Positions 41,227-57,822 of a stretch of 64,000 bases of DNA are shown piece after piece (position 1 is the first letter of the stretch; each line of letters opens with the position of its first letter). The position numbers and the translations under genes were made by a program. Source of the DNA: Mycobacterium colombiense CECT 3035 (lineage in GTDB: Bacteria; Actinomycetota; Actinomycetes; Mycobacteriales; Mycobacteriaceae); assembly GCF_002105755.1 (NCBI RefSeq), contig NZ_CP020821.1, positions 4,464,001 to 4,528,000 on the forward strand. Direction: 5' to 3'. The notes below the pieces were generated by a model. It was not told the origin of the DNA and did not search any database. It saw nothing but the letters and a program-made list of their open reading frames with translations.

Positions 41227-42698
41227 ATGACCGCACCGATCTGGATGGCGTCCCCCCCGGAAATCCACTCGACGCTGCTGACCAGCGGACCGGGCCCGGC
41301 CGGCCTCCTGGCGTCGGCCGCGTCGTGGAGCTCGTTGAGCGAGACGTATGCGTCGGCGGCCGACGAGCTCAGCGCGACGTTGGCCGCGACGCAGGCCGGG
41401 TCGTGGGAGGGGCCCACTGCCGAGCGGTATGTGGCCGCGCACCTGCCCTACCTCGCCTGGCTGGAGCGGGCAAGCGCCAACAGCGCGGCGGTGGCCGCCG
41501 AGCAGGAGACCGCGGCCACCGCTTACACGACGGCGCTGGCCGCTATGCCGACCCTCCCGGAACTGGCCGGCAACCATGCCACGCACGCGGCACTGGTGGC
41601 GACCAATTTTTTCGGGATCAACACCGTGCCGATCGCGGTCAACGAGGCCGACTATTCGCGGATGTGGGTCCAGGCGGCGACCACCATGTCGACCTATCAA
41701 GCGGTGGCAGGCACGGCCGTGGCGGCGGCACCGCAGACCGACCCGGCGCCACCGATCGTGAACTCCAGCGACAGCAGCGGCGAGGACAGCGACGATACCG
41801 GCATCGTCGACAATGACGCCGGCAACCCGTACCAGCTGAGCTGGTGGGTCAACCGCTTCCTCGAGATTTTCCAGACCATTGGAAAGGACTTGGCGGAATT
41901 TCCCGAGGACCCGGCCGACGCACTCGAGGATCTAGCAGAGGACATTTTCGGGCCCGCCGGACTCATCGCGGACGAGTTCACCCACCTGGGCGAGGCCCTT
42001 CAGGCGTTCCCCCAGCTTGCTGCCGTTCCGCTCATCGTGCCGGGCGGATTCGCGGGAGGCATAGCGGGCTTGAGTCTGATGGCAAGGATCCAGCCAGCCC
42101 CGACTCCGGCGCCCGCCGCTGCGCCCGCACCGATGCCAAAGGCGCCCACTGCGCCTGCTGTCAGCGGCGCGCCGGTCGTCAGCGCTGCTCCCGTCGCCGC
42201 GCCGGCGCCGTCACCGGTCTCCACTCCCGCTCCGGCGCCCGCGCCGGCCTCGGCCCTCCGCCCGCAGCGCCAGCGCCGCCGCCCGTGACCGGCGGCGAGG
42301 CCGTCGCCTTTCCCTATTTGGTCGGTGGGCCCGGTATCGGCACCGGCGCCGGCCTGGGCAGCGGCGCCCAGCGCAAAGCGCCCGAGCCTGATCGGACCGC
42401 GGCAACGGCGCCGGCTGCGGCATCCGTCGCGGACAGGCAGCGCGCCCGACGCCGCCGTCAGGCGGCGATGAACGACCACTACCGCGGCTACGAATACGTG
42501 GATCTGGAACCGGACGCCGGCCCGATTCCCGACCCCGGCCGGCCGGAGGCATCGGATCGCGGTGCGGGATCGCTGGGCTTTGCCGGAACCGCGCCCGTAG
42601 AGAAAACCAAGGCCGCGGGGCTCGCCACGCTGGCCGGTGACGAGTTCGGCGACGCACCCTCGACGCCGATGTTGCCGCGCGGCTGGGAGAGGGGTTAG
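41227..42698 (+). pseudogene. PPE family protein (PPE3-like, PPW subgroup), frameshifted
   Basis: The PPE domain is intact ([41 protein letters not shown]), followed by an acidic segment and a Pro/Ala-rich linker. Near 42254-42256 the frame is lost (a stop follows at 42286) and continues in the -1 frame with [24 protein letters not shown] and TPMLPRGW, the GFxGT and PxxPxxW marks. A single missing C in GGCCCT would restore a protein of about 490 residues. The break lies in the low-complexity linker. The ATG at 41227 follows GGGGAGGGG. The gene lies immediately upstream of the ESX-3 regulatory region, where PPE3 is near in M. tuberculosis. Confidence 0.8.
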
Positions 42699-43030: not shown

Positions 43031-44884
43031 GTGGAACTCGGTGACACCGGCATGCTCACAGCTCAGCCCGTTAATTCGCGGGTGGACGCGCGGGTTGACG
43101 AGGACGTCGTCAGCCGGTTCGCGACATGCTGCCGCGCGCTGGGCATCGTCGTCTACCAACGCCAGCGCCCCGCCGACCTGGCCGCCGCGCGTTCCGGTTT
43201 CACCGCGCTGACCCGCGTCGCCCACGACCAGTGCGACGCGTGGACCGGCCTGGCCGCCGCAGGCGATGCGTCTTTGCGTGTGCTCGAGGCGGTATCGCGC
43301 AACGTCGCGACCGCGGGCACGCTGCAGCGCCAGGTCGATCTGGCGCCCGGATCGCTGGGCTTCCGCTACGACACCGGTCTGTATTTGCAGTTTCGCGCCG
43401 CGACGCCGGACGACTTCCACCTCGCCTACGCTGCCGCGCTGGCAACGGCCGGACGATTTGCTGAGGCCGATGCGATCGTCACCGGCCTGACCGCCGGCCG
43501 GCCGAGCTGGCGCGAGGCCCGGTGGGTGTCGGTCGTCATCAACTACCGCGCCGAGCGCTGGTCGGACGTCGTCAAGCTGCTGACCCCGATCGTCAACGAC
43601 GCGGACCTGGACGAGGCCTTCTCGCACGCCGCCAAGATCGCCCTCGGCACCGCGCTCGCCCGGCTGGGCATGTTCGCCCCGTCGCTGTCGTATCTGGAGG
43701 AGCCCGAGGGCCCCGTCGCGGTGGCCGCCGTCGACGGCGCACTGGCCAAGGCGCTGGTGCTGCGCGCGCACGTGGACGAGGACTCGGCGAGCGAAGTGCT
43801 GCAGGATCTGTACGCCGCGCATCCCGAAAACGAACAAGTCGAACAGGCCCTGACCGACACCAGTTTCGGCATCGTGACCACCACGGCGGCCCGCATCGAA
43901 GCCCGTACCGATCCGTGGGACCCCGAAACCGAGCCCAGCGCCGAGGATTTCGTCGACCCGGCCGCGCACGAACGCAAGGCCGTGCTGCTGCACGAGGCCG
44001 AGCGCCAGCTCGCCGAATTCATCGGACTCGACGAGGTCAAGAACCAGGTGTCGCGGCTGAAGAGTTCGGTCGCCATGGAACTGGTCCGCAAGCAACGCGG
44101 CCTGGCGGTCGCGCAGCGCGCCCACCACCTGGTCTTCGCCGGCCCGCCCGGAACCGGTAAGACCACCATCGCCCGCGTCGTCGCCAAGATCTATTGCGGC
44201 CTCGGGCTTTTGAAGCGAGAGAACATTCGCGAGGTCCACCGTGCCGACCTGATCGGCCAGCACATCGGCGAGACCGAGGCGAAGACCAACGCGATCATCG
44301 ACAGCGCGCTCGACGGCGTGCTGTTCCTCGACGAGGCCTACGCGCTGGTCGCCACGGGCGCCAAGAACGACTTCGGCCTGGTGGCCATCGACACCCTGCT
44401 GGCGCGGATGGAGAACGACCGCGACCGCCTGGTGGTCATCATCGCCGGATACCGCGCCGACCTGGACAAGTTCCTGGACACCAACGAGGGCTTGCGTTCC
44501 CGGTTCACCCGCAACATCGACTTTCCTTCCTACGCACCGTCGGAGCTGGTCGAGATCGCGAACACGATGGCCGAGCAGCGCGACAGCGTTTTCGAGCCGG
44601 CCGCGCTCGAACACATGGAGGCGTTGTTCACCAAGTTGGCAACCGAGTCCACCCCGGACGCCAACGGAATCTCGCGACGCAACCTGGACATCGCCGGTAA
44701 CGGCCGGTTCGTCCGAAACATCGTCGAACGCTCCGAAGAAGAGCGGGAGTTCCGGCTCGACCATTCGGAACACGCCGGGACCGGCGAATTCAGTGACGAG
44801 GAGCTGATGACGATCACCGACGACGACGTCGAACGGTCGGTAGAGCCGCTGCTGCGCGGCCTTGGCCTGTCGGTGCCGGCATGA
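43031..44884 (+). CDS. eccA3: ESX-3 AAA+ ATPase EccA3
   Basis: Cytosolic ATPase of the CbxX/CfqX type, thought to release chaperone EspG3 from PE/PPE substrates. The 617 residues comprise a TPR-like helical N-domain (about 1-290) and an AAA+ module with Walker A GPPGTGKTT (near 373), Walker B VLFLDEAY (near 431) and sensor stretch GLRSRFTRNIDFPSY. The GTG at 43031 gives the length closest to the family; an ATG at 43052 is the alternative, and neither has a good ribosome site. eccB3 overlaps by 4 bases. First gene of the ESX-3 operon (Rv0282), downstream of Zur and IdeR type boxes. Confidence 0.95.
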   Translation: MELGDTGMLTAQPVNSRVDARVDEDVVSRFATCCRALGIVVYQRQRPADLAAARSGFTALTRVAHDQCDAWTGLAAAGDASLRVLEAVSRNVATAGTLQRQVDLAPGSLGFRYDTGLYLQFRAATPDDFHLAYAAALATAGRFAEADAIVTGLTAGRPSWREARWVSVVINYRAERWSDVVKLLTPIVNDADLDEAFSHAAKIALGTALARLGMFAPSLSYLEEPEGPVAVAAVDGALAKALVLRAHVDEDSASEVLQDLYAAHPENEQVEQALTDTSFGIVTTTAARIEARTDPWDPETEPSAEDFVDPAAHERKAVLLHEAERQLAEFIGLDEVKNQVSRLKSSVAMELVRKQRGLAVAQRAHHLVFAGPPGTGKTTIARVVAKIYCGLGLLKRENIREVHRADLIGQHIGETEAKTNAIIDSALDGVLFLDEAYALVATGAKNDFGLVAIDTLLARMENDRDRLVVIIAGYRADLDKFLDTNEGLRSRFTRNIDFPSYAPSELVEIANTMAEQRDSVFEPAALEHMEALFTKLATESTPDANGISRRNLDIAGNGRFVRNIVERSEEEREFRLDHSEHAGTGEFSDEELMTITDDDVERSVEPLLRGLGLSVPA

Positions 44885-46509
44885 CCTCCAACCACGAGTC
44901 CGACGAGCGCCGTTCGTTCACCTCTCGCACCCCGGTCAACGACAACCCCGACCAGGTCGAGTACCGCCGCGGTTTCGTCACCCGCCACCAGGTCACCGGC
45001 TGGCGGTTCGTGATGCGCCGCATCGCCTCCGGCATCGCCCTGCACGACACCAGGATGCTCGTGGACCCGCTGCGCACACAGTCGCGCGCGGTGGCCATGG
45101 GCGCTGTCCTGCTGGTCACCGGCCTGGCGGGTTGCTTCGTGTTCTCGCTGATCCGGCCCAGCGGCACGGTGGGTACCAACGCGGTGCTGGCCGACCGGTC
45201 GACCGCGGCGTTGTACGTCCGGGTCGGTGACGACCTGCACCCGGTGCTCAATCTGACGTCGGCGCGGCTCATCACCGGCCACGCCGTCGACCCCACCATG
45301 GTGAAAAGCAGTGAGCTGGACCGCTTTCCGCGTGGCAACCTGATCGGCATCCCGGGTGCGCCGGAGCGCATGGTGCAAAACCCCTCGCACGACGCGAACT
45401 GGACGGTGTGCGACGCCGTCAGCGAGCCCGCCCAGGGTGGGCACGCCGCCCACAGCACCGGCGTCACGGTGATCGCGGGCCGGCCGGACAGCAGCGGTGC
45501 GCGCGCGGCGACGATCGCGTCGCAGCAGGCGATCCTTGTCGACCGAGACGGCAGCACCTGGCTGTTGTGGGACGGCAAGCGTTCGCAGATCAACCTGACC
45601 GACCACGCGATCACGAACGCACTTGGGTTGGGGCAGAACAACTCCGAGGTGCCCGCGCCCCGGCCCATCGCGCTGGGCTTGTTCAACGCGATCCCGGAGG
45701 CACCGCCACTGACGGCGCCCGGCATCCCGAGCGCCGGCGCCCCGGCCCCGTTCAGCGTGCCCGCTCCGATCGGCGCGGTGGTGGTTTCCTACGCCCTGGA
45801 GCAGAGTTCCTCGGGCACCCCGCGCTACTACGCGGTGATGCCCGACGGCCTGCAGCAGATCTCACCGGTGCTCGCCGCCATCCTGCGCAACACCAATTCC
45901 TATGGGCTGGACCAACCGCCGCGGCTGGGTGCCGACGCGGTAGCCAAGCTGCCCGTATCGCGGATGCTGGACACCGCAAGGTATCCGGATCAGCAGGTCA
46001 GCGTGGTCGACGCGGCGAAATCGCCTGTCACGTGCGCCTATTGGAGCAAGCCTGCCGGGGCGGCGACCAGCTCGCTGCGCCTGATGTCGGGCTCCGCGCT
46101 GCCCATCCCCGAATCGATCCGCACCGTCGACCTGGTCGGCGGCGCCGCGACGAACGGATTGGTGGCCACCCGTGTAGCCCTGGCGCCGGGCACCGGCTAC
46201 TTCACCCAGACCGTTGGCGGCGGCCCGGACTCGCCGGGCACCGGGTCGCTGTTCTGGGTCTCTGACACCGGTGTCCGCTACGGCATCGACAACGAGTCCG
46301 AGCACTCCGCCGCCGGACACGGCAAAACTGTTGAGGCTCTTGGCCTTAACGGATCGCCGGTCCCCGTTCCTTGGTCGGTGTTGTCGCTGTTCGCGAATGG
46401 TCCGACGTTATCGCGCGCCGACGCGCTGCTGGCTCATGACGGGCTGACGCCCGATCAGAAGCCCGGCCGTGTGGCCGCTGCTAGGGAAGCCGAGGGAGCC
46501 CCCCGATGA
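44881..46509 (+). CDS. eccB3: ESX-3 membrane protein EccB3
   Basis: Core component of the secretion complex, 542 residues. A short cytosolic N-terminus ([20 protein letters not shown]) is followed by a single membrane helix (about 75-95, [19 protein letters not shown]) and a large periplasmic domain with the typical [11 protein letters not shown] and C-terminal [19 protein letters not shown]. The ATG overlaps the eccA3 stop by 4 bases; eccC3 overlaps its stop in the same way. Corresponds to Rv0283. Confidence 0.96.
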
Positions 46510-49500
46510 GCCGACTGATCTTCGAAGCGCGCCGCCGCCTGGCGCCGCCGGTGACCCGCAAGGGCACCATCGCCATCGAGGCGCCACCCGAGCTGCCGCG
46601 GGTGATCCCGCCGTCGTTCCTGCGCCGCGCGATGCCCTATGTGCTGGTGATCCTGATCGTCGGCATGATCGTCGCCCTGTTCGCCACCGGGATGCGGCTG
46701 ATCTCTCCGCAGACACTGTTCTTCCCGTTCGTGTTGTTGCTCGCCGCGACCGCCATGTACCGCGGCAACGACAACAAGACACGCACCGAGGAGGTCGACG
46801 CCGAGCGCGCCGACTACCTGCGTTACCTGTCGGTGGTGCGGGACAACATCCGCACCCAGGCCACCGCGCAGCGCGCCGCGGCGCAGTGGTCTCACCCGGA
46901 GCCGTCCGCGCTGGCCACGGTGCCCGGATCGCGCCGCCAGTGGGAACGTGACCCGCACGATCCCGACTTCCTGGTGCTGCGGGCCGGCCGCCATCACGTG
47001 CCGCTGGCCACCGCCCTGCGGGTCAACGACACCGCGGACGAAATCGATCTGGAGCCGGTGTCGCACAGCGCATTACGCAGCCTGCTCGACACCCATCGCA
47101 CCGTGCGCGACGTGCCGACCGGAATCGACCTGACCAAGGTCTCCCGGATCACCGTGCTGGGCGAACCAGACGAGGCAAGGGCGGCGCTGCGCGCCTGGGT
47201 CGCGCAGGCGGTGACCTGGCACGACCCGACCGTGCTCGGGGTCGCGCTGGTCACCCCGAACCTGGAGAGCCCGGACTGGTCCTGGCTGAAGTGGTTGCCG
47301 CACATCGACGTTCCGGGCGAGCTCGACGGTGTCGGGCCGGCCCGCTTCATGGCGACCAACGCCGACGACCTGGTCGCCAGCCTGGGCTCGGCCCTCCTCG
47401 ACCGTCCGGCGTTCACCGGCGAGGCCGCCGATGCCCTGCGTCACCTGCTGATCATCATCGACGACCCCGACTACGACCTCACCGCGTCCACGCTGGCGCT
47501 GGGCCGGGCGGGCGTCACCGTCGTGCAGCGCAGCGTCACGGCGCCGAACCGTGAGCAGTATTCGGATCCGGAAAAGCCGATCCTGCGCGTGTCCGGCGGC
47601 GCCCTCGAGCGCTGGCAGACCGGTGGTTGGCAGCCCTACATCGATGACGCCGACCAATTCGGCGCCGACGAGGCCGCGCACCTCGCGCGTCAGTTGTCGC
47701 GGTGGGACTCCAACCCGACCCACACCGGCCTGCGCTCCGCGGCCACCCGCGGCGCCACGTTCACCACGATGCTGGGCATTTCGGATGCCTCCCAACTGGA
47801 TGTGCCCACGCTGTGGGCGCCGCGCCGCCGCGAGGACGAGCTGCGGGTTCCGATCGGCGTCACCGCCACCGGTGAGCCGTTGATGTTCGACCTCAAGGAC
47901 GAAGCCGAGGGCGGCATGGGCCCGCACGGCCTGATGATCGGCATGACGGGGTCCGGTAAGTCGCAGACCCTGATGTCGATCCTGTTGTCGCTGTTGACGA
48001 CCCATTCGGCCGACCGCTTGATCGTCATCTACGCCGACTTCAAGGGCGAGGCGGGCGCCGACAGCTTCCGTAACTTCCCGCAAGTCGTCGCCGTCATCTC
48101 CAACATGGCCGAGAAGAAGTCGCTGGCCGATCGCTTCGCCGACACGCTGCGCGGCGAGGTGGCCCGCAGGGAGACGCTGCTGCGGGAAGCGGGCCGTCGG
48201 GTCCAGGGCAGCGCGTTCAACTCGGTGGTCGAATACGAGAACGCCATCGCGGCGGGACACGACCTGCCCCCGATCCCGACGCTGTTCGTGGTCGCCGACG
48301 AGTTCACCCTGATGCTGGCCGATCACCCGGAATACGCGGAGCTGTTCGATTACGTTGCGCGTAAAGGCCGCTCGTTCCGCATCCACATTCTGTTCGCGTC
48401 GCAGACGCTGGACGTGGGCAAGATCAAGGACATCGACAAGAACACCTCCTACCGCATCGGTTTGAAGGTCGCCAGCCCCAGCATTTCCCGCCAGATCATC
48501 GGTGTGGAGGACGCTTACCACATCGAGTCCGGCAAGGAGCACAAGGGCGTGGGCTTCCTGGTGCCCGCCCCGGGCGCGACGCCGATCAAGTTCCGCAGCA
48601 CCTACGTCGACGGCATCTACGACCCGCCGCAGAAGGCCAAATCCTTTGTCGTGCCGTCGATCCCGGAGCCCAAGCTGTTCACCGCCGGGCGCGTCGAACC
48701 GGATCAGGACACCGTGATCACCGCCCCCGAGGAAGACGAATTCACCGGGCCGCCGCGCAAGCTGATCGCCACCATCGGCGACCAGCTGGCCGGCTACGGT
48801 CCGCGCGCGCCGCAGCTCTGGCTGCCGCCGCTGGACGAGCCGATCCCGTTGAGCGCCATGCTGGCCCGCGCCGGCGTGCCGCCCCGGCAGTGGCAGTGGC
48901 CGCTCGGCGAGATCGACAAGCCGTTCGAGATGCGCCGCGATCCGTTGGTGTTCGACGCCGCCTCGTCGGCCGGCAACATGGTGATCCACGGTGGCCCGAA
49001 ATCGGGTAAGTCGACCGCGCTGCAGACGTTCATCCTGTCCGCGGCCAGCCTGCACTCGCCGCGCGAGGTGACCTTCTACTGCCTCGACTACGGCGGCGGC
49101 AAGCTGCGGGCGCTCGAAGACCTGGCGCACGTCGGCAGCGTCGCCTCGGCGCTGGAGCCCGAACGCATCCGGCGCACCTTCGGCGAACTCGAACAGCTGC
49201 TGCTGTCGCGGCAGCGCCGAGAGGCGTTCCGGGACAAGAACGGTGCGGCCCCCGACGACGGGTTCGGCGAGGTGTTCCTGGTCATCGACAACCTCTACGC
49301 GTTCGGCCGGGACAACACCGACCAGTTCAACACCCGAAACCCGTTGCTGGCCAGGGTCAGCGAGCTGGTCAACATCGGTCTCGCGTACGGCATCCATGTC
49401 GTCATCACCACCCCGAGCTGGCTCGAGGTTCCGTTGGCCATGCGCGACGGCCTCGGATTGCGGCTCGAACTCAAGCTGCACGACGCGCGGGACAGCAACG

Positions 49501-50474
49501 TCCGGGTGGTCGGCGCCTTGCGCCGCCCCGCCGAAGCGGTGCCGCACGACCAGCCGGGACGCGGATTGACCATGGCCGCAGAGCATTTCCTGTTCGCCGC
49601 ACCCGAGCTGGAGCAGATCGGCGCGCTCAATGCGCGCCACCCGGGCGTCACCGCGCCGCCGGTGCGGCTGCTGCCGACCAACCTGGTGCCGGAAGCGGTC
49701 GGGTCGCTGTATCGCGGGCCGGAGCAGGTCGTCATCGGCCAGCGCGAGGAAGACCTCGCGCCCGTGGTGGTCAACTTCGCCGAGAATCCGCTGCTGATGG
49801 TGTTCGGCGACAGCAAGTCCGGGAAGACCACGCTGCTGCGTCATCTCATTCGCACGGTGCGGGAGCACTCCACGCCGGATCAGGTGGCCTTCACGGTGCT
49901 GGACCGGCGGCTGCACCTCGTCGACGAGCCGCTGTTCGCCGACAACGAGTACACCGCCAACATCGACCGCATCATCCCGGCGATGCTGGGGCTGGCCAAC
50001 CTCATCGAATCGCGCCGGCCGCCGGCCGGTCTCTCACCGGGCGAGCTGGCCCATTGGCGCTACGCGGGCCACACCCACTACCTGATCATCGACGACGTCG
50101 ACCAGATACCGGATTCACCCGCGATGAGCGGCCCCTACGTCGGGCAGCGGCCATGGACCGCGCTGATCGGATTGCTCTCGCAGGCGGCCGATCTGGGGCT
50201 GCGCGTGATCGTCACCGCGCGTGCCACCGGCTCGGGGCACGCGCTGATGACCAACCCGCTGCTGCGCCGGTTCAACGACCTGCAGGCGACCACGTTGATG
50301 CTGGCGGGCAACCCGCAGGACAGCGGCAAGATCCGCGGCCAGCGGTTCGGCCGGTTGCCTGCCGGGCGGGCGATTCTGCTGGGCGACAGCGACGCCCCGA
50401 CGTACGTGCAGTTGGTCAACCCGCTGGTCGGGGAGTCCGTGATAGAGGGCGCTACAGACGGTTTCGCCCACTGA
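46506..50474 (+). CDS. eccC3: ESX-3 FtsK/SpoIIIE ATPase EccC3
   Basis: Motor ATPase that recognises Esx substrates and drives secretion, 1322 residues in one chain. Two membrane helices near residues 40-85 ([18 protein letters not shown]) are followed by a DUF region and three ATPase domains with Walker A motifs GMTGSGKSQ (near 478), GGPKSGKST (near 829) and GDSKSGKTT (near 1100). Walker B FVVADEF (near 597) is complete in domain 1. Overlaps eccB3 by 4 bases and is followed by PE5 40 bases on. Corresponds to Rv0284. Confidence 0.97.
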
Positions 50475-50514: not shown

Positions 50515-50823
50515 ATGACCCTACGAGTGGTTCCCGAAGGTCTGGCCGCGACCAGCGCGGCGGTGGAGGCCCTGACGGCGCGGCTGGCGGCCGCGCATGC
50601 GGCGGCGGCTCCGGCGATCACCGCGGTGGTGCCGCCGGCGGTCGATCCGGTGTCGCTGCAAACGGCGGCCGGATTCAGCGCTCAGGGCCAGGAACACTCC
50701 GCCATGGCCGCGCAGGGCGTCGAAGAGCTCGGCCGCGCCGGCGTCGGCGTCGGGCAGGCGGGCGCAAGCTATCTCGCGGGCGACACCGCGGCCGCTGCGA
50801 CGTTCGGAATCGCGGGCGCCTGA
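50515..50823 (+). CDS. PE5: PE family protein PE5
   Basis: 102-residue PE protein, secreted by ESX-3 as a dimer with PPE4. N-terminal [20 protein letters not shown] is the PE signature; the helical hairpin ends with SYLAGD, the YxxxD export signal. ATG at 50515 preceded by GGAAAGGAG. PPE4 begins 2 bases after the stop. Orthologue Rv0285; M. tuberculosis PE5-PPE4 is needed for mycobactin-linked iron uptake. Confidence 0.95.
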
Positions 50824-50825
50824 GC

Positions 50826-52319
50826 ATGACATCCCCCTTAGGACCCATCTGGATGGCGTCGCCACCCGAGGTGCATTCGGCGTTGCTCAGCGCCGGTCCA
50901 GGCCCCGGGCCGCTGTTGGCGGCCGCCGGGGCGTGGACATCGTTGAGCACCCAATACGCCTCGGCGGCAGCCGAACTCAGTGGGTTGTTGGGGGAGGCCC
51001 AGGCCGGCGCCTGGGAGGGGCCGAGCGCCGAGCAGTACGTGGCGGCGCACCTGCCGTACCTGGCGTGGCTGCAGCAGGCCAGCGTCGACAGCGCGGGTGC
51101 CGCCGCGCAGCAGGAAGTCGCGGCGACGGCGTACACGGCCGCGTTGGCGGCCATGCCGACGCTGGCCGAACTGGCCACCAATCACACCGTGCATGCGGTG
51201 TTGGTGGGGACGAATTTCTTTGGCATCAATACCATTCCGATCGCGGTCAACGAGGCCGACTATGCGCGGATGTGGGTCCAGGCCGCCACCACCATGGGCA
51301 CCTACCAGGCCGTGTCCGGCTCGGCTTTGGCCGCGGCGCCGCGCACCATGGCGGCGCCCGCGATTGTGAATCCCGGCGGCCAGATCAACAGTCTCGCGTC
51401 CAACGCGACGCAGAACAGCCCCGGGGATTGGTGGCAGAACTTCATCCAGCAGCTGTCCAAGTTCTTCCAGGACTTCTTCCAGAACATCCAGCAGATGTTG
51501 CAGAACTTCTTCTCGAATCTGCCGGCGTTCCTCGCCGCCAACGGGCCGCTGCTGTTTTTCGTTGCCTACCAAGTGTTTTTCAACGCCGTCGGCTGGCCGA
51601 CCTGGGGTGCGATCCTGACCGCACCGTTCCTGATCCCGCTGCTGCTGGGCATCGGGCTCAGTTCCCTGCTCACCACGCCCGTCGAGGCCGCGCCGGACGC
51701 CGCCCCCACCGTCGTGGCCCCCGCGCTGACGTCGACCAAGCCGCCGTCCATGCTGCCGGCGGTCGCGCTGGCCCCGACGGTGGCGACTCCGGCCGGGGCG
51801 CCGGCCACGACGGTCGCCGCGGGCTCCGGTGCGCCGGCCGCGCCTGCGCCGGCGGCAGCGGCGAGCAACTTCGCCTACCTGATCGCCATGGGCGGTGACC
51901 CGGATGCCGGTGTCGGCCCCACGCTCGGTGGTCGCGGCGGGGCCAAGGCTCCCGCGGCGACCATCCCGGCGGCGGGCGCGGCGGCGGCCAGCCGGGCCGA
52001 GTCGCGGGCCCGGCGCCGGCGGCGGGGCGCGCTGCACGACCACGCCGACGAGTTCGCGGACATGGACTCCGATTTCGGTGTCCCACCGGACTTCGGCGAC
52101 GAGGAGGAGCTGGCTGCGGCCGTCGCGTCCGCCCAGGGCGCCGGGACGCTGGGGTTCGCCGGAACCACGCAGCGGCAGAAGGCGTTTCAGGCGGCCGGGT
52201 TGACCAAGCTGGCCGACGACGATTTCGGCGGCGGCCCACGCATGCCAATGGTGCCCGGCACGTGGGAGCACGAAGCCGGTAACGGGGCGGGCCCAATCGA
52301 GCCGGGGAAAGGGGGGTAA
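50826..52319 (+). CDS. PPE4: PPE family protein PPE4
   Basis: 497-residue PPE protein, partner of PE5. The PPE domain covers residues 1-180 ([55 protein letters not shown]). Then a hydrophobic middle ([31 protein letters not shown]), a Pro/Ala linker and the PPW end (GFAGT, PMVPGTW). Uninterrupted, in contrast with the related gene at 41227. ATG at 50826, 2 bases after PE5. Corresponds to Rv0286. Confidence 0.95.
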
Positions 52320-52382: not shown

Positions 52383-52676
52383 ATGAGTATGTTGGACGCT
52401 CACATTCCGCAGTTGGTAGCCGCGCAGTCGGCGTTCAGCGCCAAGGCGGCGTTGATGCGCAGCACGATCAGCCAGGCCGAGCAGGAAGCGATGTCGGCGC
52501 AGGCGTTCCACCAGGGTGAGTCCTCCGCCGCCTTCCAGGCCGCACACGCGCGGTTCGTCGAGGTCGCCGCGCGGGTCAACACCCTGCTCGACATCGCCCA
52601 GGCCAACCTCGGGGACGCCGCCGGGACCTACGTGGCCGCGGACGCAGCCGCCGCGTCGGGCTACACCGCGTTCTGA
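52383..52676 (+). CDS. esxG: ESX-3 secreted protein EsxG
   Basis: 97-residue WXG100-family protein (TB9.8), secreted as a 1:1 heterodimer with EsxH. Two helices are joined by the turn FHQGE, where the usual Trp is replaced, as in M. tuberculosis EsxG. C-terminal GTYVAAD fits the YxxxD secretion signal. ATG at 52383 follows AGAAAGGA. Corresponds to Rv0287. Confidence 0.97.
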
Positions 52677-52708: not shown

Positions 52709-52999
52709 ATGTCGCAGATCATGTACAACTACCCGGCGATGTTGAGCCACGCCGCCGACATGTCCGGCTACGCCGGCACCATGCAGGGGCTCGGTTCCGA
52801 CATCGCCAGCGAGCAGGCCACGTTGTCCAACGCCTGGCAGGGTGACACCGGAATGACCTACCAGGTGTGGCAGGCCCAGTGGAACCAGGCGATGGAAAGC
52901 CTGGTGCGCGCCTACCAGTCGATGGCGAGCACCCACGAGGCGAACACCATGTCGATGCTGGCGCGCGACCAGGCCGAAGCCGCCAAATGGGGCGGTTAG
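52709..52999 (+). CDS. esxH: ESX-3 secreted protein EsxH (TB10.4)
   Basis: 96-residue WXG100 protein and partner of EsxG; in M. tuberculosis it also blocks ESCRT function and is a T-cell antigen. The WxG turn (NAWQGD) and the C-terminal EAAKWGG are retained. In M. tuberculosis EsxH zinc is bound by H14, H70, H76 and E77; here H14, H76 and E77 are present but residue 70 is Gln ([13 protein letters not shown]). Zinc binding may be weaker. AAAGGA stands 9 bases before the ATG at 52709. Confidence 0.97.
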
Positions 53000-53010: not shown

Positions 53011-53967
53011 ATGAACGCATCACCCAACGCCGTCGAACTGACGGTCGATCACGCTTGGTTCATCGCGGAAACGATTGGGGCGGGGAGCTTTCCCTGGGTA
53101 TTGGCCATCACCTCGCCCTATCGTGATGCCGCGGAACGCAACGCGTTCCTCGACCGTCAGAAGGCTGAGCTGACCGAACTGGGTCTGGTCTCAGAAGGCG
53201 GACTCGTCAACCCCGCGGTCGCCGAGTGGATCAAAGTGGTGTGTTTTCCCGAGCGGTGGCTGGACCTGCGTTATGTGGGCCCTCCCAGGGAAGCCGGCGA
53301 GGGCGGCGCCGAGTTGCTGCGCGGCGTCGTCGCGCAGCGCACCGGTGTGACCGGCAAGCCATCGCTGACGGTCGTCGCGTTGCGCAGCGCGCAGCTGATC
53401 ACGTTCACCGCCATGGACATCGACGATCCGCGCGCGCTGGTGCCGGTGCTCACCGTCGGCCTGGCGCAGCGCCCGCCCGCCCGGTTCGACGAGTTCAGCC
53501 TGCCGACGCGGGTCGGTGCAAGAGCCGACGAACGGCTGCGTTCGGGCGCTCCGCTCGCCGAAGTCCTTGATTACCTGGGTATTCCGCAATCGGCACGAAG
53601 GGTGGTGGAATCGGTGTTCAACGGACCGCGCAGCTACGTCGAGATCGTCGCCGGCTGCCACCGCGACGGCCGGCACTCCACCACCGAGGTGGGGATGAGC
53701 ATCGTCGACGCGCGCGAGGGGCGGGTGCTGGTCAGTCCGTCCCGCGCCTTCGACGGCGAGTGGGTTTCGACGTTCGCGCCCGGCGCCCCGTTCGCGATCG
53801 CCGTCGCGATCGAACAACTGACCGCCCTGCTGCCAGACACCGGATGGTTCTCCGAGCACCGGCTGGCCCGAGACTTTTCCCCTTCAACCCTGTCCGTCCA
53901 ACATAGTAAAAGAGAAGAGAGCACGATGTTCGAGCAACGGCCACAACATGTTTCGAGGGTCCGGTGA
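53011..53967 (+). CDS. espG3: ESX-3 chaperone EspG3, with C-terminal extension
   Basis: Cytosolic chaperone that binds the tip of PE-PPE dimers and keeps them soluble. The 318 residues match Rv0289 up to RDFSPS near 296 (for example [27 protein letters not shown] and [23 protein letters not shown]). The M. tuberculosis protein ends there at 295; this one continues about 22 residues ([19 protein letters not shown]) to a stop that overlaps the GTG of eccD3 by 4 bases. The extension is polar and may be a lost stop codon. ATG at 53011. Confidence 0.94.
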
Positions 53968-55406
53968 CGTCCGGAACCGTCATGCCGATCGTCCGCGTGG
54001 CAATCCTCGCGGACAGCAGGTTGACGGAAATGGCCTTGCCCGCGGAGCTGCCGCTGCGCGAAATCCTGCCCGCCGTACAGCGTCTGGTGGTTCCCGCCGC
54101 AACCAACGGTGACTCGGGGGACGGCGCCGCCGGGCGCGGTGCCGCCGAGATCGGCGCGGCGACCCAGCTGAGCCTGGCCCCCATCGGCGGTGCGCCGTTC
54201 AGCCTGGACGCCAGCCTGGACACGGTCGGAGTTGTCGACGGCGACCTGCTGGCGCTGCAAGCGGTGCCGGTCGGCCCGGCCGCGCCCGGCATCGTCGAGG
54301 ACATCGCCGACGCGGCCATGATCTTCTCGACCTCCCGGATCAAGCCTTGGGGCGCAACGCATATCCAGCGTGGCGCCCTGGTCGCGGCGATCGCGGTGGC
54401 GTTCCTGGCCACCGGCCTGTCGGTCACCTACCGGGTGGCCACCGGCGCGCTGCTGGGACTGGTCGCGGTCAGCGCGGTCGCGGCGTTGACCGCGATCGTC
54501 GGCCTGCTGGTCACCGCGCGCTCGGCGCGCACCGGAATGGCGCTCTCGATCGCCGCGCTGCCTCTGATCGCCGCCGCACTGGCGCTGGCCGTGCCGGGCC
54601 GATTCGGCCCCGCCCAGGTGACGCTGGCCGCCGCCGGCGTCACCGCGTGGTCGCTGATCGCCTTGATGGCGCCCAGCGCCGAACGGGAACGCATCGCCGG
54701 TTTCTTCACCGCGACCGCGGTGGTGGGTGCCGGGGTGCTGCTGGCCGCCGGCGCCGAATTGCTCTGGCACCTCACGCTCATCGCCATCGGTTGCGGGCTG
54801 ATCGTGGCGGCGCTGCTGGTCACCATCGAGGCGCCCCAACTGTCCGCGCTGTGGGCGCGGTTCCCGTTGCCGGTCATCCCGGCGCCTGGGGATCCCACCC
54901 CGTCGGCGCCGTCACTGCGGGTGCTCGAAGACCTGCCGCGCCGGGTCCGGATCAGCGACGCGCATCAGAGCGGCTTCATCGCCGCCGCGGTGCTGCTCAG
55001 CGTCCTGGGCTCGGTGGCGATCGCGCTGCGGCCCGAGACCCTCAGCGGCGCCGGCTGGTACGTGGTGGCCGCCACCGCCGCGACGTCCGTGCTGCGCGCC
55101 CGGGTCTGGGATTCGGCCGCGTGCAAGGCGTGGCTACTCGCCCAGCCCTTCCTGGCCGCCGGCACGCTGCTGGTGCTCTACACCTCGACCGGACGCTACG
55201 CCGGCGCCCTGGGCGCGGCGCTGGTGCTGCTGGTGCTCGTGGCGGTGTGGATTGTCGTGGCGCTGAACCCGGGCATCGCTGCGCCGGAGAGCTATTCGCT
55301 GCCGGTGCGCCGGCTGGTGGGCTTCGCCGCAACGGGACTCGACGCCTCGCTGATTCCCGTGATGGCCTTCGTGGTCGGTCTGTTCGGCTGGGTGCTCAAT
55401 CGATGA
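53964..55406 (+). CDS. eccD3: ESX-3 membrane channel component EccD3
   Basis: 480 residues. An N-terminal ubiquitin-like domain (about 1-100, [38 protein letters not shown]) precedes eleven hydrophobic helices ending [15 protein letters not shown] at 53964 overlaps espG3 by 4 bases; an ATG at 53982 is also in frame. mycP3 overlaps its stop by 4 bases. Corresponds to Rv0290. Forms the membrane vestibule of the secretion complex with EccB3, EccC3 and EccE3. Confidence 0.96.
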
Positions 55407-56809
55407 TTCGGCCGGCATCAGCCTGCTGCGCGGCGGCATTGGCGTTGCTGCCCGCCGCCGCGACGTGGACGAGTCCGCCGGCATCCGCGATCAGCCCGCC
55501 GACGGTCGATCCCGGCGCGCAACCGCCCAGCGGGACACCGGGGCCCGGGCAGCCGATGGAGCAGCGCGGGCCGTGCAGCACGTCCGGGGTCGTCCCCGGC
55601 AGCGATCCGGGTGCCATCACGCCAAGCCAGTCGATGCTGAATCTGCCTGCGGCATGGCGCTTCTCGCGGGGTGAGGGCCAGCTGGTGGCGCTGCTCGACA
55701 CCGGGGTGCGCCCGGGCCCGCGGCTGCCCAACGTCGAACCCGGTGGTGATTTCGTCGAGACCACCGACGGGCTGACCGACTGTGACGGGCACGGAACCTT
55801 GCTGGCCGGGGTCATCGCCGGCCAACCCTCGCCCGACGACGGGTTCTCCGGCGTTGCGCCCGCGGCGCGGGTCGTGTCGATCAGGACGGCATCGGCCAAG
55901 TTCTCACCGCGGACGCCGGGCGGCGATCCGCTGATGGCGCGCGTGTCGGCCGAGGTGTCGACCCTCGCCCGGGCGATCGTGCACGCCGCCGACCTCGGTG
56001 CCCGGGTGATCGACATCGGCTCGGCCACCTGCATGCCCGTGGACCGGCCCGTCGACCAGGCCGCCCTCGGCGCCGCCGTCCGCTACGCGGCGGTGGACAA
56101 GGACGCGGTGATAGTGGCCGGCGCCGGGGACAGCGGGCCGACCGGCGCCGGCGGCGGCGGGACCTCGTGCGAGTCCAACCCGCTCACCGACCTGAGCCGC
56201 CCGAACGATCCACGAAACTGGGCCGGCGTCACGTCGGTGTCCATCCCGTCGTGGTGGCAGCCCTACGTGCTGTCGGTGGCATCGCTGACCCCCGATGGCC
56301 AGCCGTCGAAATTCACCGTGGCGGGGCCGTGGGTGGGGGTCGCGGCGCCCGGCGAACGCATCGTGTCGATCGGCAACGCCGACGGCGGCGCGCTGGCCAA
56401 TGGCCTGCCCGACGAGCACCAGCAACTCGCCGCCCTGAGCGGAACCGGTTACGCGGCCGGCTACGTGGCCGGTGTCGCGGCGCTGGTCCGCAGCAAGTAT
56501 CCCGACCTGAATGCCACCGCGGTGCTGCACCGCATCACCGCGACCGCGCACAACGGTGCCCGCGACCCGTCGAACGTGGTGGGCACCGGCACCGTGGATC
56601 CGGTGGCCGCACTGACCTGGCAACTGCCCGCCGGTAACCAGCCCGGCGCGGCATCGGTGAAGCCGGTGGCCGTGCCGCCGGCCCCGGCGCCCAAGGACAC
56701 CAAACCGCGCACCGTCGCGGTGGCCGGCACCGCCGCGCTGGCCGTGCTGGTCGCGGTGGCCGGCGCCGTCACCGCAATCGCACGCCGACGAAAGGACCCC
56801 ACCCCGTGA
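55403..56809 (+). CDS. mycP3: Mycosin-3, subtilisin-like protease of ESX-3, with altered active site
   Basis: 468 residues: signal peptide (about 1-29, ending ASA), a mycosin propeptide-like Pro-rich extension, a subtilase domain and a C-terminal membrane helix (TVAVAGTAALAVLVAVAGA) followed by RRRK. Asp99 (VALLDTGV) and His130 (DCDGHGT) of the triad are present. At the Ser position the sequence is LSGTGYAAGYVAG: codon GGT at 56447-56449 encodes Gly349 where subtilases have GTS. The block that usually carries the oxyanion Asn reads AGAGDSG. If correct, the protein is not an active protease, though mycosins also have a structural role in the secretion complex. Overlaps eccD3 by 4 bases and eccE3 by 4. 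Confidence 0.94.
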   Translation: MIRPASACCAAALALLPAAATWTSPPASAISPPTVDPGAQPPSGTPGPGQPMEQRGPCSTSGVVPGSDPGAITPSQSMLNLPAAWRFSRGEGQLVALLDTGVRPGPRLPNVEPGGDFVETTDGLTDCDGHGTLLAGVIAGQPSPDDGFSGVAPAARVVSIRTASAKFSPRTPGGDPLMARVSAEVSTLARAIVHAADLGARVIDIGSATCMPVDRPVDQAALGAAVRYAAVDKDAVIVAGAGDSGPTGAGGGGTSCESNPLTDLSRPNDPRNWAGVTSVSIPSWWQPYVLSVASLTPDGQPSKFTVAGPWVGVAAPGERIVSIGNADGGALANGLPDEHQQLAALSGTGYAAGYVAGVAALVRSKYPDLNATAVLHRITATAHNGARDPSNVVGTGTVDPVAALTWQLPAGNQPGAASVKPVAVPPAPAPKDTKPRTVAVAGTAALAVLVAVAGAVTAIARRRKDPTP

Positions 56810-57822
56810 GCAAGCATCGGATACCGACTCCCGGGAGCGGTCGAATCACGTTGGCGCTGCTGGCCATTGTGCCGGCGGCGATGGCCTACCCGTGGCGAGG
56901 CCCGCGCGACTACTGGCTGCTGGGCATCGCGGCCGCCGTGGTGGTCGTGTTGTTCGGCTGGTGGGGCGGTATGTACTTGACCGCCATCGTGCGCCGCCGC
57001 CTGGCGATGATCGCCCGCGGCAACGCCGTCCCCTCGGCCACCTCCGACGCGGCGGCGACCGCCCTGATTCGCCTCGGCGCACCGGAGGACGACTCCGACG
57101 TGTTGCCGCTCCCGCTGATCGCGAGCTACCTGGACCGTTACGGCATCCGGGCGGACAAGATCCGAATCACCAGCCGCGACAACGCCGCCGACCCGTCACG
57201 CCGCGAGACCTGGATCGGGCTCACCGTATCGGCGCCCGACAACCTGGCCGCGCTGCAGGCCCGCTCGCCACGAATCCCGTTGCACGAGACGGCTCAGGTC
57301 GCGGCCCGCCGGCTGGCCGATCATCTGCGGGAGATCGGTTGGGATGCCACCACCGTCGCGGCCGAGGACGTTCCCCGGTTGCTGACGTCCAACCCCCGCG
57401 AGAGGTGGCGGGGAGTCCAGCGTGGTGCCTCGGATTACCTTGCGGCGTACCGGATTCAGGTCGACGACGCGCTGCCGGAGACCTTGGCGGCAATCCGGGA
57501 GTATGCCGCGCGCGAAACCTGCACCGCGCTCGAGGTTGCCGGTGACAACCGCCGGCCCACCGTCGCGGTCGCCTGCGCGTTCCAGACCGAGACCGCCCCG
57601 GACGGCAAGGCGCCGGTGGACGGGCTGACCCCGCAACGCGGTAACCACCTGCCCGCGCTGACCGCACTGGACCTGTTGTCCACGTATCGGTTAGACGGCC
57701 ACACCGCCGCGCCGCAGGACCTGCTCGCGCAGCTGAATTGGCCCACCCTGGCCGGCGCGGCCCACCGGCGCGGCGAGACCGGCGCCGAGAGCGCCGACAC
57801 CGCTGAGGCGGTCAGAACATGA
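56806..57822 (+). CDS. eccE3: ESX-3 membrane protein EccE3
   Basis: 338 residues, last gene of the operon. Two adjacent N-terminal helices (about 13-30 and 36-56, LALLAIVPAAMAY, YWLLGIAAAVVVVLFGWWGG) anchor a soluble domain with RRLADHLREIGWDATTVAAEDV typical of EccE. GTG at 56806 overlaps mycP3 by 4 bases. Its 3' end overlaps the convergent hydrolase gene by 11 bases. Corresponds to Rv0292. Confidence 0.95.
   Translation: MSKHRIPTPGSGRITLALLAIVPAAMAYPWRGPRDYWLLGIAAAVVVVLFGWWGGMYLTAIVRRRLAMIARGNAVPSATSDAAATALIRLGAPEDDSDVLPLPLIASYLDRYGIRADKIRITSRDNAADPSRRETWIGLTVSAPDNLAALQARSPRIPLHETAQVAARRLADHLREIGWDATTVAAEDVPRLLTSNPRERWRGVQRGASDYLAAYRIQVDDALPETLAAIREYAARETCTALEVAGDNRRPTVAVACAFQTETAPDGKAPVDGLTPQRGNHLPALTALDLLSTYRLDGHTAAPQDLLAQLNWPTLAGAAHRRGETGAESADTAEAVRT

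Follow-up and report, generated by a model that had tools for sequence, protein, structure and literature searches.

A probable pseudoprotease in the ESX-3 locus of Mycobacterium colombiense: recurrent absence of the catalytic serine from mycosin-3

Results

MycP3 of the window lacks the catalytic serine

A mycosin that has lost its catalytic serine raises the question whether it has given up proteolysis and kept a structural role, is decaying, works through a different residue, or has been misread. The case considered here is mycP3, the mycosin-3 gene of the esx-3 locus in a 64,000-nucleotide stretch of Mycobacterium colombiense CECT 3035 (NZ_CP020821.1, positions 4,464,001 to 4,528,000; the window). 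The genome is a single contig of 5.58 Mb, with M. colombiense strains among its closest named relatives (96-97% protein identity). A preliminary description of the window had read the Ser motif as SGTGYAAG with Gly349 encoded by GGT, Asp99 and His130 as intact, and the oxyanion block as altered (AGAGDSG); these readings are borne out by translation of the frame and by alignment to the solved MycP3 chain 4kg7, as listed below.

55403-56809, plus strand: mycP3 (mycosin-3), 468 amino acids, ATG at 55403 and stop at 56807-56809; assigned by TIGR03921 and the solved chain 4kg7
55697-55699, plus strand: Asp99, the catalytic Asp, present (translation, alignment)
55790-55792, plus strand: His130, the catalytic His, present (translation, alignment)
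56129-56131, plus strand: Asp243 at the oxyanion Asn site (translation, alignment)
56438-56461, plus strand: Ser block SGTGYAAG, residues 346-353 (translation)
56447-56449, plus strand: GGT, Gly349 at the catalytic Ser position (translation, alignment to 4kg7)

Against the mycosin model TIGR03921, whose cut-off is 278.75, the protein reaches 373.9 bits; it also matches Peptidase_S8 in the family search and is encoded between eccD3 and eccE3, as expected of an esx mycosin. In the HMMER alignment to 4kg7, Gly349 faces the Ser of GTSYAA, and residue 243 is Asp, where most relatives have Asn. The catalytic Asp and His of an active S8 peptidase are thus present and the Ser and oxyanion Asn absent; judged by its sequence, MycP3 of the window is without the full Asp-His-Ser triad and so lacks what defines an active S8 peptidase.

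The serine is missing from many mycobacterial MycP3 genes

MycP3 was compared in 227 distinct genes, obtained from 240 translated rows by merging those identical over their overlap. These are not a random draw. They were taken from named loci (the best 80 of 137 confirmed candidates), from the genus genomes nearest to the window (121 of 396), from 29 further copies next in rank, and from 81 loci nearest to two Mycolicibacterium-type queries; a MycP3 match at 1e-115 was present in 334 of the 396 genus genomes, part of which were read. The first count excludes five paralogue loci, L002-L006. Site 349 is Ser in 172 genes, Gly in 53 and Asp in 2, giving 55 Ser-less genes. His130 is replaced in 10 genes and Asp99 in 2, and at least one triad residue is missing in 62 of the 227. 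The frequency of Ser-less genes differs by draw: 26/134 in the first (80 named loci and the 121 genomes nearest to the window), 23/28 in the second (about 65-71% identity, with a triad residue missing in 26/28) and 6/65 in the third (Mycolicibacterium-type queries). Among 121 homologous proteins, that of the window included, the site is Gly in 11, Asp in 1 and Ala in 1, and His is replaced by Gln in 2.

On a pooled MycP3 tree, built quickly, without bootstrap and with the catalytic columns left out, the Ser site changes 18 times, 15 of these changes being forced by starred branches; under Fitch mapping 14 of them are losses and 4 are reversals. A careful tree of a smaller set gives 9 changes (5-95% bootstrap range 9-10). 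A tree of the neighbors eccD3 and eccE3, in which mycP3 itself was not used and which covers the 105 of 110 loci having both neighbors (84 different rows, 32 of the 105 Ser-less), gives 8 changes (range 8-8).

Loss of the triad can also take another route: seven loci (L139, L046, L199, L204, L273, L280, and L281) keep the Ser and carry Arg in place of His130. Six genomes have two MycP3-like genes each, namely G022 (L274/L278), G069 (L283/L296), G073 (L292/L295), G371 (L285/L294), G078 (L290/L291), and G143 (L148/L271). Both copies read Ser-less in four of the six and one copy in G078, while in G143 an intact copy is accompanied by one that carries Arg130 together with Gly349.

All distinct genes of the window's inner clade are Ser-less

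In the inner clade formed by M. colombiense and its close relatives the Ser is absent from all 12 distinct MycP3 genes (10 Gly, 2 Asp), and 5 homologous proteins placed with this clade are likewise Ser-less (3 Gly, 1 Asp, 1 Ala). The preliminary description had proposed aligning related MycP3 sequences at this codon. The alignment gives Gly or Asp across the inner clade, so the Gly is real, and the change is not confined to this strain. Codons GGT, GGC, GGG, and GAC all occur at site 349 within the clade of the window; given this variety, the loss cannot be recent, and further change has followed at the site. The basal position in the clade is held by L014, which is Ser-less (Gly), together with a near-identical protein, P0006, which carries Ser.

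The remainder of Ser-less MycP3 is under undiminished purifying selection

Estimates of omega (model MGK+F3X4) were made for clades chosen from the tree. For the window's clade, 13 Ser-less genes, L014 among them, give 0.071, and 23 Ser-less genes of a second group, from which the divergent row L271 was left out, give 0.093. Ser-bearing sets give 0.062 (15 genes), 0.092 (7 genes), 0.083 (7 genes), 0.078 (11 genes), and 0.099 (24 genes), the last set consisting of the 24 intact rows that come first in the third draw. When kappa is omitted from the model, the Ser-less clade gives 0.079 and four Ser-bearing clades 0.077-0.105. For the neighboring genes the Ser-less clade gives 0.070 versus 0.088 in a Ser-bearing clade for eccD3, and 0.174 versus 0.151 for eccE3. 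Stop codons are absent from all 240 translated MycP3 rows (227 distinct genes). The Ser has been lost while the rest of MycP3 stays under undiminished purifying selection.

Fold and interface residues are retained

The closest solved chain is 4kg7 (E value 9.2e-156, 522.8 bits, alignment from residue 29). An AlphaFold model, computed with 60 more diverse mycosins in the input alignment, has a mean predicted local distance difference test (pLDDT) score of 76.7, and its best match is again 4kg7, with a template modeling score of 0.95 by target and a root mean square deviation of 2.0 over 379 columns. By family match, alignment, and predicted model, MycP3 of the window keeps the subtilase fold, the N-terminal extension, and the C-terminal helix. 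Two further elements are as follows.

56618-56620, plus strand: Trp406, aligned with Trp523 of MycP5 (4kg7/MycP5 HMMER alignment, conservation count)
56702-56785, plus strand: predicted C-terminal helix, residues 434-461 (model; pLDDT there only 50-63)

The helix is read as a membrane anchor on the basis of the model. The alignment to MycP5 places residue 343 opposite 460 and runs without gaps up to 406/523. According to the part of the ESX-5 cryo-electron microscopy report drawn on here, Trp523 of MycP5 is buried at the interface with EccB5 (PMC8131196). Trp406 and four Cys residues are invariant in 227/227 distinct MycP3 genes, including 55/55 Ser-less ones. A repeat search over eccD3-mycP3-eccE3 gave nothing distinguishable from chance GC-rich matches.

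Change is concentrated at the catalytic center

The oxyanion site carries Asp in 41/55 Ser-less genes versus 2/172 Ser-bearing ones, one further Ser-bearing gene having Thr. The oxyanion Asn is lost 13 times on the tree, 11 of these losses falling on Ser-less branches, which make up 25% of tree length (p 1.2e-5); in independent pairs, 15 in all, the average is 6.8:0, with p between 0.008 and 0.07 (median 0.016). At the 133 positions that are conserved in at least 98% of intact copies, Ser-less genes depart by 2.9% on average. The positions departing most are 349 itself, 243 (75%), 236 (31%), 286 and 240 (25% each), and 55 (20%). In the predicted model, positions 236-240 form the strand directly before the oxyanion residue; positions 286 and 55 do not lie close to it in sequence. 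Change in Ser-less MycP3 is concentrated at the catalytic center. Position 134, a further candidate for a change linked to Ser loss (9/26 Ser-less genes in the first set), was unsupported by independent pairs and was dropped.

Asp243 by itself is no proof of inactivity, because MycP5 usually has Asp at this position (24 of 25 copies) and yet keeps its Ser. The 25 MycP5 copies are L207-L230 and L004; with an oxyanion Asp beside a retained Ser in 24 of them, the activity of MycP5 deserves a test in its own right.

Other mycosins of the same genomes keep the serine

Paralogues were examined in 23 genomes whose MycP3 is Ser-less, 13 of which belong to the window's clade, so that the counts are not independent. 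The Ser is kept in 25/25 copies of MycP5 (23/23 genomes), 22/22 copies of MycP4 (22/23 genomes), and 19/19 copies of the MycP2 type (18/23 genomes). The best solved match of the MycP5 copies is Mycosin-5; those that we take to be MycP4 and MycP2-type were named from neighbors and loop, as their best solved matches do not decide. In the genomes compared, Ser loss is specific to MycP3.

Elsewhere in the window genome, a MycP5 gene and a MycP2-type gene (L004/L005 and L003/L006) are split across frames, the N-terminal and catalytic parts lying in different frames and the break falling in the proline-rich loop, whereas close relatives have a single longer open frame (625 and 616 amino acids). The split frames may reflect a run-length assembly slip or a real slip site.

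The surrounding esx-3 locus is whole

An intact esx-3 locus lies in the window on the plus strand, its genes overlapping or tightly packed; the start of mycP3 overlaps the end of eccD3, and its end the start of eccE3.

43031-44884, plus strand: eccA3 (PF21545, PF00004)
44881-46509, plus strand: eccB3 (PF05108)
46506-50474, plus strand: eccC3, open reading frame (ORF) of 1322 amino acids, assigned from ORF reading and position
50515-50823, plus strand: PE gene (PF00934), presumably PE5-type by position
50826-52319, plus strand: PPE gene (PF00823, PF18878), presumably PPE4-type by position
52383-52676, plus strand: WXG100 gene (PF06013), taken to be esxG by position
52709-52999, plus strand: WXG100 gene (PF06013), taken to be esxH by position
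53011-53967, plus strand: espG3 (PF14011)
53964-55406, plus strand: eccD3 (PF19053, PF08817)
56806-57822, plus strand: eccE3 (PF11203)

Upstream of eccA3, at 41227-42698, a PPE-like gene appears to be split over two overlapping frames; by frame reading, one of them holds the PPE part and the second a PPW-like tail.

Discussion

MycP3 has very probably become a pseudoprotease repeatedly, keeping the structural role of a mycosin in holding the EccB periplasmic assembly together. We infer from the sequence that Ser-less MycP3 is proteolytically inactive and, by analogy with other ESX systems, that it serves as a scaffold in ESX-3. The published work cited in this section is drawn on through excerpts. 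In ESX-1 and ESX-5 a mycosin is required for secretion and complex stability, whereas its active-site Ser is not required for secretion (PMC5082899, PMC5156307), in agreement with the preliminary description, which had held mycosin proteolysis to be dispensable for secretion and the protein itself to be required. Complexes are unstable when the mycosin is missing (PMC5082899, PMC8131196), and the EccB5 assembly is capped by three copies of MycP5, whose active sites face the chamber (PMC8131196). In ESX-3, three MycP3 copies would likewise sit on the EccB periplasmic assembly as a structural cap, holding the EccB trimer of dimers together and cutting nothing. Catalysis would have been dispensable many times over, and with constraint relaxed on catalysis alone the Ser would be lost, the oxyanion Asn then changing too. 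The proposal of a protease-dead MycP3 that keeps only its scaffold role fits the intact frame and locus, the undiminished purifying selection, the invariance of the Trp and four Cys in 55/55 Ser-less genes, and the concentration of change at the oxyanion site. The scale goes beyond the natural separation-of-function allele of the preliminary description, with about 14 inferred losses across the genus as sampled.

Four points weigh against this interpretation. The Ser is kept in the majority of the MycP3 genes examined (172/227). The near-twins P0006 and L014 differ in the site residue at the branch where the window's clade begins, a difference that may have arisen by an independent, late loss or by reversal. 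In independent pairs, the association with the oxyanion site falls short of significance on the first, smaller tree (p 0.125) and reaches it on the larger one. Finally, deletion of mycP3 in M. smegmatis has little effect on growth (PMC6389172), and because this phenotype is mild, the structural need is less clear in ESX-3 than in ESX-1 and ESX-5. Two other excerpted studies indicate that MycP3 has a role while not telling scaffold and protease apart: transposon mutants of M. abscessus mycP3 overproduce siderophore and show a small growth delay in low iron (PMC9505556), and mycP3 is among the genes required for pellicle growth of M. intracellulare (PMC7096427).

A base-calling or assembly error in the window genome has a negligible chance of accounting for the Gly. 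The frame differences in the proline-rich loops of the two other mycosin genes of this genome, which may be assembly slips, speak for it. The other 11 distinct inner-clade genes, which come from separate assemblies, carry Gly or Asp, as do the homologous proteins P0002-P0005, and because separate assemblies agree, such an error is excluded. That mycP3 is an early pseudogene, or ESX-3 a dying system, is extremely improbable: the loss of one catalytic residue would be expected of it, and it is already contradicted by the lack of stops in 240 translated rows, by an omega within the range of the Ser-bearing sets, by the intact esx-3 locus, and by the similar omega of eccD3 and eccE3 in Ser-less and Ser-bearing clades. 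The preliminary description had also considered that another Ser might act as nucleophile, and no substitute nucleophile was found in the Ser-less set. The retention of the triad His in 52/55 Ser-less genes, and of Asp99 in all except 2 of the 227 genes, would suit another nucleophile or a different chemistry at the site, which we nevertheless regard as highly improbable, as no Ser, Cys, or Thr is fixed across the Ser-less set, the closest Ser (346) is present in only 33/55 of these genes, and the oxyanion Asn is also lost in 41/55.

A different question is why the Ser was lost, since under adaptive inactivation the protein would still be a scaffold and only the cause would differ. The many inferred losses, confined to MycP3 among the mycosins examined, would fit selection for inactivity, as would the over-secretion by MycP1 active-site mutants (PMC5082899). 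In the same excerpted report, however, the MycP5 active-site mutant does not over-secrete (PMC5082899), and the replacements are Gly in 53/55 genes, as GC-ward substitution predicts, so that drift explains the spectrum. Adaptive inactivation is thus an unlikely cause, and relaxed constraint is likely the better explanation, because the Gly spectrum fits GC-ward drift at an unconstrained site in mycP3 genes whose GC content at third codon positions is 0.86.

The structure 4kg7, MycP3 of ESX-3, is an orthologue with the same fold as MycP3 of the window, from which it differs in having Ser in GTSYAA and the oxyanion Asn in place of Gly and Asp. MycP5 of ESX-5 (cryo-electron microscopy structure 7np7) resembles it in fold, in the EccB-interface Trp523 that corresponds to Trp406, and in the oxyanion Asp usual in MycP5, and differs in keeping the Ser in 25/25 copies and in having a long extra loop. 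The M. marinum mutants MycP1 S354A and MycP5 S461A are protease-dead mycosins that still support secretion (PMC5082899, PMC5156307); they were made in the laboratory, whereas the MycP3 loss is natural and recurrent. CspC and CspA of Clostridioides difficile spores are bacterial subtilase pseudoproteases with a retained non-catalytic function, and CspC has undergone the same Ser-to-Gly replacement (G485); they belong to another family and role (germination), and CspC has lost its His too (PMC6636752). Bacterial subtilase pseudoproteases and laboratory-made protease-dead mycosins are therefore already known, and within the excerpts of the open-access literature consulted no report of a natural, recurrent pseudoprotease mycosin was found.

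More tentatively, ESX-3 is possibly switching lineage by lineage from a cutting to a building-only mycosin, the triad having been broken many times independently, in about a quarter of the MycP3 genes sampled (62/227), by loss of either Ser or His, the oxyanion site changing alongside. If this were true, proteolysis would be a layer that the ESX-3 machine can do without, and the emptied cleft toward the secretion chamber would be free for other use, e.g. binding a substrate instead of cutting it. Repeated natural loss of catalysis together with undiminished selection elsewhere is evolutionary evidence that what matters in MycP3 is its structure, and it is a warning that MycP3 should not be taken for a protease drug target in all species. 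Close relatives that differ in having or lacking the Ser are material for finding what MycP3 cuts. P0006 and L014 form a natural near-isogenic pair for a comparison of activity.
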